From the NCBI GenBank assembly GCA_002708315.1, contig PANC01000021.1, positions 37,778 to 101,777 of the forward strand: a stretch of 64,000 nucleotides of DNA, given 5' to 3'. Made by a program: the position numbers and the translations under genes. Below, one piece after another: positions 48,237 to 56,094 of the stretch. The notes under the pieces were generated by a model. It did not search any database, was not told where the DNA came from, and saw nothing but the letters and a program-made list of their open reading frames with translations. Position 1 is the stretch's first letter; each line of letters begins with the position of its first letter. This DNA is from Lentimicrobiaceae bacterium (GTDB lineage Bacteria > Bacteroidota > Bacteroidia > Bacteroidales > F082).

Positions 48237-48363
48237 ATATATTGAGTTTCTGGTAAATTATTTTTTGATTTATCAAAAGTAATAAATCTATGAACTTGAA
48301 TACGGACTAAATTCAATTTAGATTTAATCAACATTTTAACGACCTTTGCAAAAATTTATTACC

Positions 48364-49434
48364 ATGAATATCGCGGCCTTGGTATCGGGAGGAGTAGACA
48401 GTTCTGTTACTGTTCCTCTTCTAAAACAAATGGGATTTGATCCTCATATATTCTATATCAAAATTGGTATGGAGGATCAAGATTCATTCATGGATTGTCC
48501 GTCTGAGGAAGACATAGAAATAACTACATGGATAGCAAAAAAATATGGCTGTAGGTTTGATATTATTGACTTACAAGAAGAATATTGGGCAACAGTAGTT
48601 AAATATACCATTGATACTGTTAAAAAGGGTTTGACTCCAAATCCTGATATAATGTGTAATCTACTGATAAAATTTGGAGCGTTTAATGATAGATATGGGC
48701 AAGAATTTGATAAGATTGCAACTGGTCATTATGCAACTAACTATGAAACAAAAGATGGTGTATTTTTAGCTGCGGCAAAAGATAAAGTAAAAGATCAAAC
48801 ATACTTCTTATCACAAATAACTTATCCACAGCTGCATAAAACATTATTTCCAATTGGTAATCTTCCCAAATCAGATGTCAGAAAAATTGCATCAGAAATG
48901 AGCCTTCCAAGTGCCACAAGAAAAGATAGCCAAGGTATATGTTTCTTGGGTAAAATCAACTACGGAGAATTCATAAAAAATCAAATAGGCATAATGCCAG
49001 GAGAGATAAGAGAGCTTGAATCAAACAAATTACTTGGCGAGCACCAGGGTTTTTGGTTTCATACTATTGGACAGAGAAGAGGTTTAAAACTTGGAGGTGG
49101 ACCATGGTTTGTTGTGAAAAAAGACACAATCAATAATATAATTTATGCTAGTAAGGGATACGACCCAATTTCAAGATATAGTGATGAGATAAAACTTGAT
49201 AGAGTACACTTTTTAAATCCTAACCATGATTATAGTGAACTAAATCAAATAAAATTTAAGATCCGTCATCAGCCTGAATTTATGGAAGGTTTTATCACCA
49301 TTGGTGATACCACAAGTAAAATTGTAAGTAAGGAAAAGATATCAGGCATAGCCCCAGGACAATTTACAGTAATGTATTCCAATGATGAAAAAACATGTAT
49401 TGGAAGTGCAATGATTTCAGAAGATAATAATTAA
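48364..49434 (+). CDS. mnmA: tRNA-specific 2-thiouridylase MnmA
   Basis: NIAALVSGGVDSSVTVPLLKQMG, PNPDIMCNLLIKFGAF, ATGHYA, KDQTYFLSQI, RKDSQGICFLGKINYGEFI, GQRRGLKLGGGPWFV. ATG 48364 preferred over 48346. Confidence 0.93.
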   Translation: MNIAALVSGGVDSSVTVPLLKQMGFDPHIFYIKIGMEDQDSFMDCPSEEDIEITTWIAKKYGCRFDIIDLQEEYWATVVKYTIDTVKKGLTPNPDIMCNLLIKFGAFNDRYGQEFDKIATGHYATNYETKDGVFLAAAKDKVKDQTYFLSQITYPQLHKTLFPIGNLPKSDVRKIASEMSLPSATRKDSQGICFLGKINYGEFIKNQIGIMPGEIRELESNKLLGEHQGFWFHTIGQRRGLKLGGGPWFVVKKDTINNIIYASKGYDPISRYSDEIKLDRVHFLNPNHDYSELNQIKFKIRHQPEFMEGFITIGDTTSKIVSKEKISGIAPGQFTVMYSNDEKTCIGSAMISEDNN

Positions 49435-49458
49435 CCCCCCAATAAATTGGGAGGTTAA
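49431..49458. terminator. Possible bidirectional terminator between mnmA and trpB (convergent)
   Basis: TTAACCCCCCAA-TAAA-TTGGGAGGTTAA, 12-bp stem with one mismatch, overlapping the mnmA stop codon; no strong T-tract. Confidence 0.45.
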
Positions 49459-49476
49459 TCAGATCGCCATTACCAA

Positions 49477-50676
49477 TTAAAATAATTGATCTCTTCCAAC
49501 ATCCTTATCGCCTCTACCTGATAGATTTACGATGCTTATTTTATCACCCTGTCCCTTTAATAAACTCATGGCGAGAGCAACTGCGTGAGACGATTCAATG
49601 GCAGGGATAATTCCCTCTAGGCAGGAAAGGATTTTAAAAGCCTCCACAGCCTCGTCGTCTGTAACTGCATAGTATTTTGCTCTCTGTTTTTCCTTGAGAA
49701 GTGAATGTTGAGGGCTAACACCTGGATAGTCCAATCCTGCTGCAATTGAAGAAGTTGGACAAACATCACCATTTTCATCCGATATAGCATAGGAATATGT
49801 ACCTTGAAAAACACCCGGTTTACCAATCGAAAGAGTTGCAGCTGTTTTACCAGGTTCTGCTTTTTCTCCGCCACCTTCGGCAGCATAAATATTGACCGGA
49901 TCATAAAGAAATTCTTGAAACAGACCAATTGCATTGCTACCACCTCCAACACAAGCAAATATATTATCTGGCAATCGTCCCTCTGCCTCAATAATTTGTT
50001 TTTTAGCCTCTTTACCAATAATTCTTTGGAAATACCCAACTATCGTTGGGTATGGGTGCGGACCCACCTGTGATCCAAGCAAGTAAAATACATCGGGGTT
50101 CTCAACATAATACCCCAGAGCTGCATCAACAGCATCCTTTAGTGTTGCTCTACCATTTTCAGTCAATATTACTTCGGCACCAAGCAATTTTATTCGATTT
50201 ACATTCATTTGCTGCCGCCTAGCATCCTTTGCGCCCATAAATATTTTACACTTGATGCCAAATAATGCTGCAGCGGTTGCCGTGGCCACACCATGCTGAC
50301 CTGCACCTGTTTCAGCCACTACTTCAGTTGCTCCCATTCTATGGGCAAGTAATATCTGACCAATGGTATTATTTATTTTATGTGACCCTGTATGATTAAG
50401 ATCCTCTCTTTTTAGATAAATCTTTGATCCAACATGCTTTGACAAGTTTCTTGCATAATATAAAGGTGAAGGTCTTCCAACAAATTTTTCCAAATAGTAT
50501 TTATATTCATTTTCAAAGTCATCGTGCAATATTTCTTTTTGAAAGAAATCTGCCAGTTTGATTAGCTTCTCCTCAAGGTGTGGAGGAACATACATCCCTC
50601 CAAAATCACCGTACATGCCATTATTAGCTTCAAAAATATTTTCATTTGATTTAATCGATTTTATAGTTGTTTCCAT
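49477..50676 (-). CDS. trpB: Tryptophan synthase beta chain
   Basis: GDFGGMYVPPHLEEKL, GRPSPLYYARNLSKHVGSKIYLKREDLNHTGSHKINNTIGQILLA, ETGAGQHGVATATAAALFG, CVGGGSNAIGLFQEFL, LSGRGDKDV. Confidence 0.97.
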   Translation of the reverse strand: METTIKSIKSNENIFEANNGMYGDFGGMYVPPHLEEKLIKLADFFQKEILHDDFENEYKYYLEKFVGRPSPLYYARNLSKHVGSKIYLKREDLNHTGSHKINNTIGQILLAHRMGATEVVAETGAGQHGVATATAAALFGIKCKIFMGAKDARRQQMNVNRIKLLGAEVILTENGRATLKDAVDAALGYYVENPDVFYLLGSQVGPHPYPTIVGYFQRIIGKEAKKQIIEAEGRLPDNIFACVGGGSNAIGLFQEFLYDPVNIYAAEGGGEKAEPGKTAATLSIGKPGVFQGTYSYAISDENGDVCPTSSIAAGLDYPGVSPQHSLLKEKQRAKYYAVTDDEAVEAFKILSCLEGIIPAIESSHAVALAMSLLKGQGDKISIVNLSGRGDKDVGRDQLF

Positions 50677-50709
50677 TTTATTATTGTGTTAAGTGTTAAT
50701 TATTAATTT

Positions 50710-50781
50710 CTAAGTGTCTTGGAAAAACCACCATCGAAAAATTGTTCTTGCCTTCCAGCTATTAATTTTAATTCTTTGCAT
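50710..50781 (-). CDS. Second Trp-rich small ORF (MQRIKINSWKARTIFRWWFFQDT*) between attenuator hairpin and trpB
   Basis: Codon-by-codon reading of the minus strand: ATG 50781-50779 ... TGG 50757-50755 ... TGG TGG 50733-50728 ... TAG 50712-50710; three Trp in 23 codons. Not in the ORF track (too short). Confidence 0.5.
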   Translation of the reverse strand: MQRIKINSWKARTIFRWWFFQDT

Positions 50782-50793
50782 ATTTGAATTGTT

Positions 50794-50834
50794 AAAACAA
50801 AAAAACCGCCTCATTTTGTAATGAGACGGTTTTT
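50794..50834 (-). terminator. trp attenuator terminator hairpin
   Basis: Minus strand AAAAACCGTCTCAT-TACAAA-ATGAGGCGGTTTTT (14-bp stem, one G-U) continuing TTTTTTTGTTTTAAC; located between the WWW leader ORF and trpB. Confidence 0.9.
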
Positions 50835-50856
50835 ATATTTCTAAAATAAGAGATAA

Positions 50857-50928
50857 TCACATAACAGAATGTCCAACTAAGGAGTATTTGTTGTGCCACC
50901 ACCAATTATTCGTTGTTATCTTAATCAT
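50857..50928 (-). CDS. trp leader peptide (MIKITTNNWWWHNKYSLVGHSVM*)
   Basis: ATG 50928-50926, three consecutive TGG codons at 50904-50896, TGA 50859-50857, 22 nt before the terminator stem, upstream of trpB. Confidence 0.85.
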   Translation of the reverse strand: MIKITTNNWWWHNKYSLVGHSVM

Positions 50929-50934
50929 ATTGTG

Positions 50935-50963
50935 CAAATATATAAGTAAAGTTTTTACTCCAA
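50935..50963 (-). promoter_or_regulatory. trpB promoter: TTG-N18-TATATTTG
   Basis: -7 TATATTTG at 50942-50935 and TTG at 50963-50961 on minus strand, immediately upstream of the leader ATG at 50928. Confidence 0.65.
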
Positions 50964-50970
50964 CAACTAT

Positions 50971-51936
50971 TTAAAAATATTTTTCTTGACTCAAGTATTT
51001 TTGAACATAGTCATTTATACCATCTTCAAGACTTGTAAAAGCTTTTTTAAATCCAACACCTTTTAACTTTTCCATCTTTGCCTCAGTAAAATATTGATAT
51101 TTATCTCTAATATCTTCTGGAGTATCAATAAAATCAATATCGGGCTTAATATCCATCGCTTTAAAAGTAGAAATAGCCAAGTCAATAAAAGTTCTAGCAT
51201 TTCCAGTACCGAGGTTGTATAACCCTGACTTGGGTTTTGTCTCCATCAGAAACATAATTACATTAGCCACATCCATAACATAAACAAAATCGCGCAGCTG
51301 TTCTCCATCATTAAAATCTGGATTGTGAGACTTAAATAGTTTTACTTTTCCAGTAAGTTTTATCTGATTAAATGCATGTAGTATAACCGATGCCATTCTA
51401 CCCTTATGGTATTCATTGGGCCCATAAACATTGAAGAATTTTAGTCCTGCCCAAAAAGGAGGTGCCACTTTCTCTTTAATTGCCCATTTATCAAACTCGT
51501 TTTTGGATATTCCGTATGGATTAAGAGGCTTAAGGTTGTAAATAACATCATGATTATCCATATAACCATATTCTCCCATGCCATATGTTGCTGCTGATGA
51601 TGCATAAATTAATGGGACCTGAAAACCAGAACACCTTAACCACATTTGTTTTGTATAATCAAGGTTTAATACATTTAATAAATCAATATTGAACTCTGTA
51701 GTATCAGTACGCGCCCCAATATGAATCACAAAATCAACATCTTTATGATTGTCATCAAACCAATGAAAAAAGTCATCTCTGTGAACCTTTTTTTCATATT
51801 TTTTTTCCGCAAGATTTCTGTTCTTGTTAGTATTGGAAAAATCATCTACTAAAATGAGATTCTCAAATTTATTATCATTGAATCTCTCAACAATCACACT
51901 CCCAATAAATCCTGCAGCTCCAGTAATAACTATCAT
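50971..51936 (-). CDS. hldD: ADP-L-glycero-D-manno-heptose 6-epimerase-like NAD-dependent epimerase
   Basis: IVITGAAGFIGSVIVERFNDNKFENLILVDDFSN, FVIHIGARTDTTEFN, YASSAATYGMGEYGYMD, LNPYGISKNEFDKWAI, FFNVYGPNEYHKGRMASV, GQLRDFVYV-like GEQLRDFVYVMDVANV. Confidence 0.93.
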   Translation of the reverse strand: MIVITGAAGFIGSVIVERFNDNKFENLILVDDFSNTNKNRNLAEKKYEKKVHRDDFFHWFDDNHKDVDFVIHIGARTDTTEFNIDLLNVLNLDYTKQMWLRCSGFQVPLIYASSAATYGMGEYGYMDNHDVIYNLKPLNPYGISKNEFDKWAIKEKVAPPFWAGLKFFNVYGPNEYHKGRMASVILHAFNQIKLTGKVKLFKSHNPDFNDGEQLRDFVYVMDVANVIMFLMETKPKSGLYNLGTGNARTFIDLAISTFKAMDIKPDIDFIDTPEDIRDKYQYFTEAKMEKLKGVGFKKAFTSLEDGINDYVQKYLSQEKYF

Positions 51937-52073: not shown

Positions 52074-54254
52074 ATGAAAACCACTACAAGCAAATCATTT
52101 CTTATCATTCTATTTATTATTATTTTCGGGTTTAGATCATTTTCTCAAATTAATCAAGGAGGTATTCCACCAAGCATTGAGTATAATATTATTGATGAAA
52201 CCGACAAAATAAATCTTATTAAACCCAGCATGAATGCAATTCATGAGGAAGATATTATAAGGGAGGCTACAAATCCAAATGCACCTCAGAGAATGGGCAT
52301 TTCAGTTAAGGTTAATAAGACAATGTCAGAAATTGGCACATGGACGGATATTGAAGGCTTAGGAAGTATATGGAGGTTAGAGATTAAAGTTGAAGATGCA
52401 GTTGCTCTGGGAGTATATTACAATGATTTTTATATTCCTCAAGGAGGTAAGTTATTTTTATACAACAAAGACAGATCCTATTTAATAGGTGCTTACACTA
52501 ATATTAATAATCCAGAGGAAAGCTTATTTGCGACAGAATTTATTCCCGGCGATGTTGTTATATTAGAATATTTCAAACCCTTAAGTGTTAAAGAAGATGC
52601 AATAATATCAATAAGCAATGTTGCTTATGCATACCGCTTAATTGATTTTTCATTTAATAAAAATACCAACTCATGGTATTGCATGATTAACGTTGCGTGT
52701 CAAGAGGGTGACAACTGGGAAGATCAATCCAAGGGGATAGCTAGAATGTCCATAAGAATCGGTGGTAGTTATTATTGGTGCTCTGGTTCTTTGATAAATA
52801 ATACAAATAATGACAGAACACCTTATTTTCTCTCTGCAGCTCATTGTGGTGAAGGATCAACATCAAGCGACAGACTTCAATGGGTTTTTTACTTCAATTT
52901 TCAATCATCAACTTGTAGTGGTAGTAGCAGCGGGTATAACTCAATTACTGGCTGTCAATTAAAGGCCAAGGATCAAAGTTATGCTGATAGTGGATCAGAT
53001 TTCGACCTCATGAAATTTAATAGCTCTATCCCTGACTCTTATGATGTATATTACAATGGATGGAACCGCACCAATTCTGCCGATGATGCAGGAAGTGGAG
53101 TTGGAATACATCATCCTGCAGGCGACATAAAAAAAATATCAACCTATGATACTCCACTTATATCTTCAACATTTTGGAATGGTCTTCACAGTCACTGGCG
53201 ATTAACATGGGCTGAAACTATTAATGGCAAATCAATAATGCAAGGAGGTTCATCAGGGTCACCAGTTTTCGATAGTAATGGTCTTATCATGGGAGATTTA
53301 ACTGGTGGTTATGCATCAAATACCTGTGAAAATCCTTCCCCTGCTTACTATGGTAAGGTATGGTATTCTTGGGATAAAAATGGTACAACTAATTCAACAA
53401 TGTTAAAGCCATGGCTTGATCCAGGTAATACCGGTATTGAGAAGTTACCCGGAGTATCATGGGAAATTATACCACCAGAGGCTGATTTTGAAGCGATGTC
53501 AACAAATATCATTCAAGGTGACACTGTTTTCTTTAGTGATTTATCTGGACCAAGTATCTTAGAATGGTCATGGACATTTGAGGGCGGTGAACCATCAACA
53601 TCAGATCTCATGAACCCAAATGTATTTTATGCAGACACAGGTTTTTTTGATGTTTCCCTAACTGTAACAAATGCAGATGGAACCGACACAGAAATAAAAT
53701 CAGATTTTGTATATGTTGAGCAAATGCAACTTCCAATAACTGAATTTGAAGCTAATATCACAACAGTTGCCCCAGGAGGAGTAGTTTCTTTTACGGACCT
53801 CACTCTCAATAACCCAGACCAATGGTCATGGAGTTTTGATGGAGGTTCTCCCTCCACTTCTGAATACCAAAACCCAACGGTTAGATTTAATACACCAGGT
53901 ATCTACAATATATCCTTGGTAACTTCAAATCTGGGTGGATCAGATTCCCTTTTAAAAGAAGATTATATACACGTAGCAATTGTTAATATTGGAGAAAATA
54001 TTTCAGATAAAAAGCCTTCAATATATCCTAACCCTAGTAATGGGCTTTTCACAATAGATTTTAATAATGCATATAGCAGTGATGTAGAAATTGAAATTAA
54101 AACAGCATCTGGAAAAAGTATCCAAGTTCATAAAAGAATAAATACTTCTGAATCATTTATCGTAGATATGAATGATAGTCCTAACGGAATTTATTTGATT
54201 AATATTTATAATGGCACATCTAATATTACTCAAAAAATAGCGTTATTCAGGTAA
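52074..54254 (+). CDS. Secreted trypsin-like (lysyl-endopeptidase-like) serine protease with two PKD domains and T9SS type A sorting tail
   Basis: Signal peptide; YWCSGSLINNTNNDRTPYFLSAAHCG, SGSDFDLMKFN, MQGGSSGSPVFDSNGLIMGDLTGG; PKD repeats (WSWTFEGGEPSTSDLMNPNVFYADTGFFDVSLTVTN; WSWSFDGGSPSTSEYQNPTVRFNTPGIYNISLVTSN); C-terminus SIYPNPSNGLFTIDF...GIYLINIYNGTSNITQKIALF. Confidence 0.92.
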   Translation: MKTTTSKSFLIILFIIIFGFRSFSQINQGGIPPSIEYNIIDETDKINLIKPSMNAIHEEDIIREATNPNAPQRMGISVKVNKTMSEIGTWTDIEGLGSIWRLEIKVEDAVALGVYYNDFYIPQGGKLFLYNKDRSYLIGAYTNINNPEESLFATEFIPGDVVILEYFKPLSVKEDAIISISNVAYAYRLIDFSFNKNTNSWYCMINVACQEGDNWEDQSKGIARMSIRIGGSYYWCSGSLINNTNNDRTPYFLSAAHCGEGSTSSDRLQWVFYFNFQSSTCSGSSSGYNSITGCQLKAKDQSYADSGSDFDLMKFNSSIPDSYDVYYNGWNRTNSADDAGSGVGIHHPAGDIKKISTYDTPLISSTFWNGLHSHWRLTWAETINGKSIMQGGSSGSPVFDSNGLIMGDLTGGYASNTCENPSPAYYGKVWYSWDKNGTTNSTMLKPWLDPGNTGIEKLPGVSWEIIPPEADFEAMSTNIIQGDTVFFSDLSGPSILEWSWTFEGGEPSTSDLMNPNVFYADTGFFDVSLTVTNADGTDTEIKSDFVYVEQMQLPITEFEANITTVAPGGVVSFTDLTLNNPDQWSWSFDGGSPSTSEYQNPTVRFNTPGIYNISLVTSNLGGSDSLLKEDYIHVAIVNIGENISDKKPSIYPNPSNGLFTIDFNNAYSSDVEIEIKTASGKSIQVHKRINTSESFIVDMNDSPNGIYLINIYNGTSNITQKIALFR

Positions 54255-54270
54255 GGCTATAAAAAATCGT

Positions 54271-56094
54271 ATGAGTAAACATTTATTTTTGATTATCCTA
54301 TTAGTAGCACTATTCATTAAACTTGATGCACAAAACAAATTATCAAAACCATTATCATCTCAATACGAACTAAGCTCTATTATACCATTAAAAAGTTTTA
54401 TAAACACCCCAATAATAGTTGATAATAAAAGTAAAAACTACCCTCCGCAAGCTGGTTACACAATTCCCATTAAAATAAGTTTGGTAGATGGTATTATAGA
54501 TTCAACCTTATCTGGTTATATATGGAGAACAACCATCGAAATCAAAAATTCTAATTCGGTCAATTTTTATATTAGCAACGTGAGTCTTGAAGATTATCAG
54601 AGTTTATTTTTATACACTAAAGAATATGCTCATCTTACTGAATATCATTCCATTGATGCTAATAATATATCTACTGATTTCATTGATGGAGATAAAATAA
54701 TAGTAGAATTAAACTCAAAATCAGAAATAACTAATATCCCATTTCAGATTATGGAAGCAGGGATATTATTATCCAAACCACAGGGTTTTGGAGATGCAGG
54801 TAATTGTGAAGTTCATGTAAACTGTAGTGAAGGTAACGATTGGCAATTTCAAAAAAATGGAATTGCCCGTATACTAGTAAAGGAAGGTAATACAACCTTT
54901 TGGTGTTCAGGATCATTGATTAATAACACAAGGAATAATGGTGAACCGCTTTTTCTCACAGCAAATCATTGCGGAATAAACTCTGACTCTGTTGATTACG
55001 CAGATTGGATGTTTTATTTCAATTTTGAATCAGATGATTGTATTCAACCATTGGAAGAGCCCGATTATAACTTATTAACTGGCTCAACACTTCTTTCGAA
55101 TAGTAAGTTTGGCACTGGAGGTGGTTCGGATTTTAAACTTCTTAGATTATCTGAGAATCCAGGCCTCCAATTCAACCCATATTTTAATGGTTGGGACAGA
55201 AGCACCACAGAATCACCTAATGGTGTAACTATACATCATCCACAAGGCGACCTAAAAATGATATCTACATACCAGAAGCCATTAACATCAACAAAATATG
55301 ATAATGATCAGGTTGATCCAAATGGTATGTATTGGAGAGTTGTGTGGGCCCAGACAGAAAATGGCTTTGGAGTAACTGAAGGTGGGTCATCTGGAAGCCC
55401 ACTATTTAATGAAGAGGGATTAATAATTGGTGCTCTAACAGGAGGTAGAGCATCATGCACATACCTTGAACAGCCCGATTTTTATGGAAAGTTAAGTTAT
55501 TCATGGGCACCTTTAACATCTGATTCTTTATCACAACTCGCTCATTGGCTTGACCCCATTGGCAGTGGAGTTATGTATTTAAATGGATCCAGCCTAGATT
55601 CAACAAATGTATTTGCAGGGTTTGTGTCTAATACAAACACGGTAATAATTGGTGATAATATTACATTTAAAAATACCTCCATTGGAAATATTACAAGTTA
55701 TAAGTGGCTATTTGAAGGAGGTGAACCCTCTTATTCAGAATTAGAATTTCCGGAAAATATCAAATATAAACGAATAGGAGAATTCGATGTGACCTTAATT
55801 GTTTCATCATCTAAAGATTCTGATACATTGATAGCGCCTGATTATATAAAAGTCGTTCCTAACATATTCCCAAACCCTAGTGATGGATTATTTAAACTTG
55901 TCTTTGGAAAAGAAATTCCCGATTCCTATTCCCTAAGGATTTTTGGACTAGATGGTAAAGAAGTTAGGTTTATGATTAAGGAAAAAGGAACAAATTATTT
56001 AGTTATAAACATGAATTACTCCGAAGCTGGCTACTATTTAGTAAGGTTTTCTTCGGATGAACTAATTACCAGCTATAAGGTTATGGTATTTTAA
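54271..56094 (+). CDS. Secreted trypsin-like serine protease, one PKD-like domain, T9SS sorting tail (tandem paralog)
   Basis: TTFWCSGSLINNTRNNGEPLFLTANHCG, GGSDFKLLRLS, VTEGGSSGSPLFNEEGLIIGALTGG; YKWLFEGGEPSYSELEFPENIKYKRIGEFDVTLIVSS; NIFPNPSDGLFKLVF...GYYLVRFSSDELITSYKVMVF. Confidence 0.92.
   Translation: MSKHLFLIILLVALFIKLDAQNKLSKPLSSQYELSSIIPLKSFINTPIIVDNKSKNYPPQAGYTIPIKISLVDGIIDSTLSGYIWRTTIEIKNSNSVNFYISNVSLEDYQSLFLYTKEYAHLTEYHSIDANNISTDFIDGDKIIVELNSKSEITNIPFQIMEAGILLSKPQGFGDAGNCEVHVNCSEGNDWQFQKNGIARILVKEGNTTFWCSGSLINNTRNNGEPLFLTANHCGINSDSVDYADWMFYFNFESDDCIQPLEEPDYNLLTGSTLLSNSKFGTGGGSDFKLLRLSENPGLQFNPYFNGWDRSTTESPNGVTIHHPQGDLKMISTYQKPLTSTKYDNDQVDPNGMYWRVVWAQTENGFGVTEGGSSGSPLFNEEGLIIGALTGGRASCTYLEQPDFYGKLSYSWAPLTSDSLSQLAHWLDPIGSGVMYLNGSSLDSTNVFAGFVSNTNTVIIGDNITFKNTSIGNITSYKWLFEGGEPSYSELEFPENIKYKRIGEFDVTLIVSSSKDSDTLIAPDYIKVVPNIFPNPSDGLFKLVFGKEIPDSYSLRIFGLDGKEVRFMIKEKGTNYLVINMNYSEAGYYLVRFSSDELITSYKVMVF

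Follow-up and report, generated by a model that had tools for sequence, protein, structure and literature searches.

The window analysed here, a stretch of 64,000 nucleotides from a Lentimicrobiaceae bacterium, carries two short Trp-rich open reading frames upstream of a stand-alone trpB gene, and the second of these (uORF2), located between the terminator of a trp attenuator and the trpB start, is a real, conserved and unexplained element and a new part of this locus. uORF2 is present in relatives and its peptide is under selection. We propose, with chances that we consider even, that a solo, Trp-free TrpB of the indole-salvage type is controlled here in two stages, a codon-reading attenuator being followed by a step at uORF2; the second stage, a nascent-peptide or peptide step acting on trpB, is the part that we infer. 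It is uORF2, and not the ordinary attenuator in front of it, that makes the locus worth following up. In a search restricted to open-access full texts, a second conserved ORF before trpB was not found described, and its novelty is thus provisional.

On the minus strand the order of elements is, from 5′ to 3′, an rfaD-like gene (50971–51936), the TATATTTG box, leader 1, the terminator, uORF2 and trpB (Table 1). The first-pass annotation of this DNA had described a leader peptide with WWW, a terminator hairpin of 14 bp followed by a T-run and, 5′ of trpB, a second ORF with Trp at codons 9, 17 and 18; all three were located, and the coordinates proposed were off by a few bases at most. The hairpin reads AAAACCGTCTCATT-ACAA-AATGAGGCGGTTTT, with one G–U among its 14 pairs, and the T-run extends to about 50799. 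Recounting gave the same six Trp codons in 46, and the opinion that this excess is very unlikely to be due to chance was borne out by dinucleotide shuffling of the leader region, which produced a WWW ORF in 0 of 2000 trials. The order rfaD-like epimerase, attenuator-trpB and mnmA-like gene (the latter on the opposite strand) occupies positions 48346–51936 of the window, and parts of it recur in relatives (L010, L014, L015, L016 and L022), so that the position of trpB is old within the group. Two adjacent paralogous genes at 52074–54254 and 54271–56094 on the plus strand encode, from a reading of their translations only, putative trypsin-like proteases that would be secreted and that have PKD-like repeats and, at the C terminus, tails of the sorting type.

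Table 1. Features of the trpB upstream region, in window coordinates.
Feature	Position	Strand	Remarks
−7-like TAnnTTTG element (TATATTTG)	50935..50942	−	Consensus of the Bacteroidota primary sigma factor; ends about 6 nt 5′ of the leader 1 ATG
Leader peptide 1 (uORF1), MIKITTNNWWWHNKYSLVGHSVM followed by stop	50857..50928	−	Trp at codons 9–11; WW/WWW kept in more than 40 loci
Attenuator stem 1:2, 5′ arm holding the Trp codons	50844..50911	−	From folding; equivalent stem in most relatives
Candidate antiterminator 2:3	50819..50879	−	UAGU-U-GGAC (50879–50871) with GUCU-C-AUUA (50827–50819), 8 bp; computed
Intrinsic terminator	50799..50833	−	14-bp hairpin (50833–50802) and U-run
uORF2, MQRIKINSWKARTIFRWWFFQDT followed by stop	50710..50781	−	Trp at codons 9, 17 and 18; W-x7-W core conserved
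uORF2 core, KINSWKARTIFRW	50731..50769	−	Invariant Trp codons 9 (50757–50755) and 17 (50733–50731)
Possible long-range duplex	50655..50737	−	UCGAU-GGUGGUUUUUCC (50737–50721) with trpB codons 1–8, GGAAACAACU..AUCGA (50674–50655)
Solo trpB, 399 aa, without Trp	49477..50676	−	TIGR00263 match, 519 bits

Regions upstream of trpB homologues with 57–100% identity were taken as the loci for comparison. A WW or WWW leader, a long 1:2 stem and then a terminator were found 5′ of solo trpB in more than 40 of these, an arrangement near-universal among the attenuator loci, and a hairpin with a T-run occupies the equivalent position in nearly all of them. In the window, leader and terminator fold at −41 kcal/mol, as compared with −21.6 kcal/mol for shuffled sequences (z −6.2). 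Folding for an antiterminator gave in the window a weak alternative, a 2:3 duplex of 8 bp with −5.2 kcal/mol, and the computed counterpart in relatives of genus g10 reached about −18 to −20 kcal/mol. The Rfam model Bacteroid-trp (RF01692) matched over its full length at 50951–50823 with 38.8 bits (E 0.12), below its gathering score of 49 bits, a cut-off reached by none of the 20 loci tested; one relative (L025) matched the enterobacterial Trp_leader model (RF00513) with E 8e-4, likewise under the gathering score. The same layout of a WWW leader and a terminator was present in trpE operons of the same order. The comparison gives good support to the assignment of leader 1 and its terminator as a standard ribosome-mediated trp attenuator, presumably an element of an ordinary kind, in agreement with what the first-pass annotation had proposed for this pair. 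Outside the Trp codons, leader 1 showed a pN/pS of 0.93 (9 pairs) and, to judge from these substitutions, it is neutral apart from its Trp codons.

An exact TAnnTTTG, the −7 consensus given in PMC7366714 for the primary sigma factor of Bacteroidota, was found 4–29 nt 5′ of leader 1 in 22 of 45 loci. Since this box stands close before leader 1, the transcript probably begins with leader 1 or a short distance before it, the transcription start being deduced from the box. Between the terminator and trpB no TAnnTTTG was found in any uORF2 locus; an internal second promoter before uORF2 was therefore rejected, and trpB probably lies with uORF2 on one and the same attenuated RNA. We also rejected a second terminator behind uORF2, since the spacers mostly fold no better than shuffled sequences (z −0.35 in the window).

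TrpA (PF00290) was missing from 26 of the 29 genomes carrying solo TrpB, being found in 3, and indole-glycerol phosphate synthase (IGPS/trpC, PF00218) was missing from 51 of 60 and found in 9. Neither trpA nor trpC was detected in the genome assembly of the window (78% complete) or in that of a close relative, G006 (95% complete), and in the trpA-bearing genomes examined a second, canonical trpB adjoins trpA. Since trpA and trpC are mostly missing, solo TrpB is most likely an indole-salvage enzyme. The first-pass designation of a Trp-biosynthetic gene is right in that the gene is trpB (TIGR00263), with the qualification that it stands alone, so that indole salvage is likelier than the de novo pathway. 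No Trp at all was present in 88 of 90 solo TrpB sequences (some loci being counted twice), as compared with 11 of 78 TrpBs from other phyla. Since TrpB is Trp-free, uORF2 is the only ORF on the message after leader 1 that requires Trp; such a confinement is sensible for a sensor and wasteful otherwise.

Homologues of uORF2 were identified between the terminator and trpB in many families of the order, in 43 distinct versions and with lengths of 16–40 residues across loci (for example MNQNIINWLKRVLFRWQR, MNATILSWIKKVIFRW, MKEYILIWLNIIENRWQ, MNRYILKWLNEITRFW and MTYKIFWENRTDFRW, the window having MQRIKINSWKARTIFRWWFFQDT), and across the relatives' trpB upstream regions the Trp codons of both ORFs and the hairpin are conserved. 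The uORF2 homologues share a core of 13 residues with two Trp exactly 8 apart, in the pattern I-x-x-W-[LI]-x-x-[VTI]-x-[FN]-R-W; the column consensus over the 43 distinct cores is I-[LI]-x-W-[LI]-[NK]-[KR]-[TVI]-[IE]-[FN]-R-W. With the Trp codons excluded, 20 disjoint pairs showed 67.9 differences at 140.5 synonymous sites and 78.1 at 519.5 nonsynonymous sites, which gave a pN/pS of 0.31 (bootstrap 95% 0.20–0.44; Fisher p 2.5e-15); these are Nei–Gojobori-type counts on a short alignment without saturation correction, which would lower the ratio further. On this substitution pattern the core is judged to be under strong purifying selection at the peptide level across many families. A W-x7-W ORF arose by chance in 0 of 200 shuffles of the window terminator–trpB spacer, and in 7 of 5800 over all loci. 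No match to uORF2 was obtained in Pfam, NCBIfam or the PDB.

The Arg codon 5′ of the second Trp was CGA in 23 cases, CGT in 10 and AGA in 2, CGA representing 76 of the 557 Arg codons (14%) of the trpB genes, and the Phe codon near the second Trp was free to vary (TTT/TTC 14:13); the CGA bias hints that a step at this point is slow or constrained at the nucleotide level. Between the second Trp and the stop of uORF2 lie from 0 to more than 20 codons, and the distance from this stop to the trpB start ranges from +4 to beyond −100, with an overlap (ATGA) in L145. In four species of family f99 (L118, L172, L173 and L174) the first Trp of uORF2 is lost and only its [IV]FRWR end is left, which suggests that the C-terminal part of the motif may be the more essential one in this family.

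uORF2 was restricted to loci having leader 1 and the terminator. It was missing from the attenuator-less solo trpB loci L024, L029, L036, L037 and L129, and also from seven of seven trpE-type attenuators checked in the same order, where the structural gene begins soon after the terminator; the solo trpB loci L125, L126, L130, L132, L136 and L143 have the attenuator without uORF2. A family-wide scan with the uORF2 DNA pattern returned matches upstream of trpB and others at the level of the reversed-pattern control. Occurrence of uORF2 before other genes was rejected, as the remaining matches were at background level and the sole FRW look-alike (L155) lies antisense inside another gene. In L027, L028, L122–L124, L133 and L134 the slot of uORF2 holds a different Trp-containing ORF across a GC-rich hairpin (e.g., TGGCGGGG..CCCCGC). 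In L128 (1354–2649, plus strand) uORF2 continues in frame and without interruption into TrpB, whose N terminus it extends (MKKYILTWLNIIENRWQ...MTTQTQ), and in its congeners a stop codon stands between the two.

The proposed two-stage control would operate as follows. In the first stage, a ribosome on leader 1 would sense charged tRNA-Trp at the WWW codons. When leader 1 is completed, stem 1:2 and the terminator would form; a stall at WWW under Trp starvation would leave the remainder of the leader available for pairing with the 5′ arm of the terminator, and RNA polymerase would read through. In the second stage, the read-through RNA would present uORF2 first, and the uORF2 nascent chain together with its two Trp codons would most likely hold the ribosome in a pause or set it free, depending on how much tryptophan is supplied, acting presumably in cis. 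Such pausing may set the translation, or the co-transcriptional survival, of the trpB message just downstream, and in some lineages, that of the window included, the paused ribosome would in addition open a pairing of the Trp codons with the trpB start region. Since leader 1 is selected for its Trp codons only and uORF2 as a peptide, the second stage would differ in kind from the first. As the second Trp stands at no fixed distance from the stop, a TnaC-like arrest at the termination stage cannot be general. The first-pass annotation had suggested a two-stage or decayed tandem attenuator: the former is still the best idea, and the latter was ruled out by the purifying selection on the uORF2 core. 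Several observations speak against the two-stage view, namely that many loci do not show the pairing with the trpB start, that the window antiterminator is weak, and that the first Trp was lost in the four f99 species, which keep the FRW end.

The strongest competitor, which we regard as unlikely and still the one to be taken most seriously, is that uORF2 encodes a microprotein acting in trans, for example an amphipathic helix that binds solo TrpB in the stead of TrpA, or that acts at the membrane; it would be co-expressed through the attenuator and be no regulator itself. Selection at the peptide level, the hydrophobic repeat, the basic residues and the host genomes mostly without trpA are in line with it, and W-x7-W with this repeat (helical-moment mean z 0.84) is also compatible with a stable amphipathic helix in trans. 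The fusion of uORF2 to TrpB in L128 is unexpected for a purely cis-acting arrest peptide, and AlphaFold2 gave a helix for residues 2–16 of this fusion; however, the pLDDT of the helix was about 30 and the model, whose alignment read the stop codons of other rows as Gly and is thus a rough pairing, was uninformative as to docking on TrpB. Against a microprotein there are also the absence of uORF2 wherever the attenuator is missing, and from the six attenuator-bearing loci named above, the cost under starvation of a Trp-rich partner for a Trp-free enzyme, and the lack of any Pfam or NCBIfam match.

A second Trp-codon sensor working through an RNA switch of the MgtP type, in which the Trp codons hide the trpB start and a stalled ribosome frees it, is considered improbable as the general explanation of uORF2. 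In the window, the Trp-Trp-Phe-Phe codons of uORF2 pair with trpB codons 1–8 in a duplex of −15.5 kcal/mol (z −2.2), and with a ribosome at the second Trp (W2) the trpB start is computed to open at a cost of 2.6 instead of 6.3 kcal/mol. The loci of family f25 behave alike: they contain CCATGGTGGTGG, a complement of the trpB start region, and the opening cost decreases from 12.7 to 4.1 in L122, from 9.6 to 5.7 in L028 and from 8.3 to 4.5 in L123. Native combinations of uORF2 and trpB start also paired better than swapped ones (mean rank 0.376, 45 loci). Most loci, however, are without such pairing (mean rank of the W2 mask 0.44 over 56 loci), the spacers mostly fold like shuffled sequences, and a switch of this type leaves the selection on the non-Trp residues unexplained. 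After three tests, general sequestration of the start codon by the Trp codons was rejected; it looks real in the window, in f25 and in some lineages, and since the effect is weak over all loci it is treated here as lineage-specific.

It is less probable again that uORF2 merely supplies trpB with ribosomes, through reinitiation or coupling, without sensing. It is common for a leader gene to lie a short way upstream of another gene (PMC4833913), and in L145 the stop of uORF2 and the start of trpB overlap; nevertheless, the stop-to-start distances across loci are far off the peak at 11–14 bp reported for Bacteroidetes, and coupling does not require a conserved peptide. That uORF2 arose by chance or as a copy of leader 1 now in decay, as its Trp-richness and its position next to leader 1 might suggest, is very improbable given the pN/pS over 43 versions, the rarity of such ORFs in shuffled spacers and the similarity of uORF2s to each other and not to leader 1.

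Leader peptides are normally selected for their regulatory codons only. Here one leader region holds both a leader of this codon-only type and, directly past the terminator, a micro-ORF selected as a peptide, and uORF2 is confined to the solo trpB of organisms mostly without trpA and trpC, in front of a Trp-avoiding enzyme. These features point to an undescribed second control layer or to a tiny enzyme partner. With the proposed two-stage control in mind, uORF2 may tentatively be regarded, at slightly less than even chances, as a new family of Trp-responsive nascent-chain regulators (or micro-subunits), specific to the solo Trp-free TrpB of one Bacteroidia order and placed downstream of a conventional attenuator, by which the same amino acid would be read as codons and then via a selected peptide. 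Should uORF2 be an arrest peptide, it would add to TnaC a second, unrelated one that responds to Trp; should it be a microprotein, it would be a candidate replacement of TrpA. Either way, how the activity or expression of a lone TrpB is tuned on salvaged indole becomes a testable question in cultured relatives.

The window resembles the elements described by RF01692 and RF00513 in having a run of Trp codons in the 5′ arm of a leader stem, a terminator and a trp gene downstream; these models end at the terminator, after which the window has a further conserved uORF and then a trpB that stands alone. Two short ORFs in one leader are likewise found in the Salmonella mgtCBR tandem leader (mgtM and mgtP; PMC3641672), where the second has regulatory codons and adjoins structures, one of which hides the start codon. 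The response of mgtP to proline survives scrambling of its sequence as long as two Pro codons and the stem-loop sequence are kept (PMC3641672), and mgtP thus needs no selection as a peptide, whereas uORF2 is selected as one; in the window, moreover, both uORFs contain Trp codons. With E. coli TnaC, which has an invariant Trp12 and Asp16 and arrests at Pro24-stop (PMC8429421), uORF2 shares the nature of a short conserved upstream peptide, an invariant Trp and the connection with tryptophan metabolism. It differs from TnaC at position +4 after Trp, where T, V or I takes the place of Asp, in lacking a Pro at the C terminus and in its variable stop position, so that neither the Asp at +4 nor the fixed C-terminal Pro-stop of TnaC-type peptides was found, and while the target of TnaC degrades Trp, that of uORF2 makes it. 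The property expected of regulatory peptides in general, conservation at the peptide level just 5′ of the target gene, was found in uORF2. The Sinorhizobium trp leader peptide peTrpL is able to act in trans (PMC7298713), and it is like uORF2 as proposed here, a peptide from a trp-attenuator region that would itself be functional; peTrpL is, however, the attenuator's own leader peptide and acts on another mRNA, whereas uORF2 is a separate ORF 3′ of the terminator.
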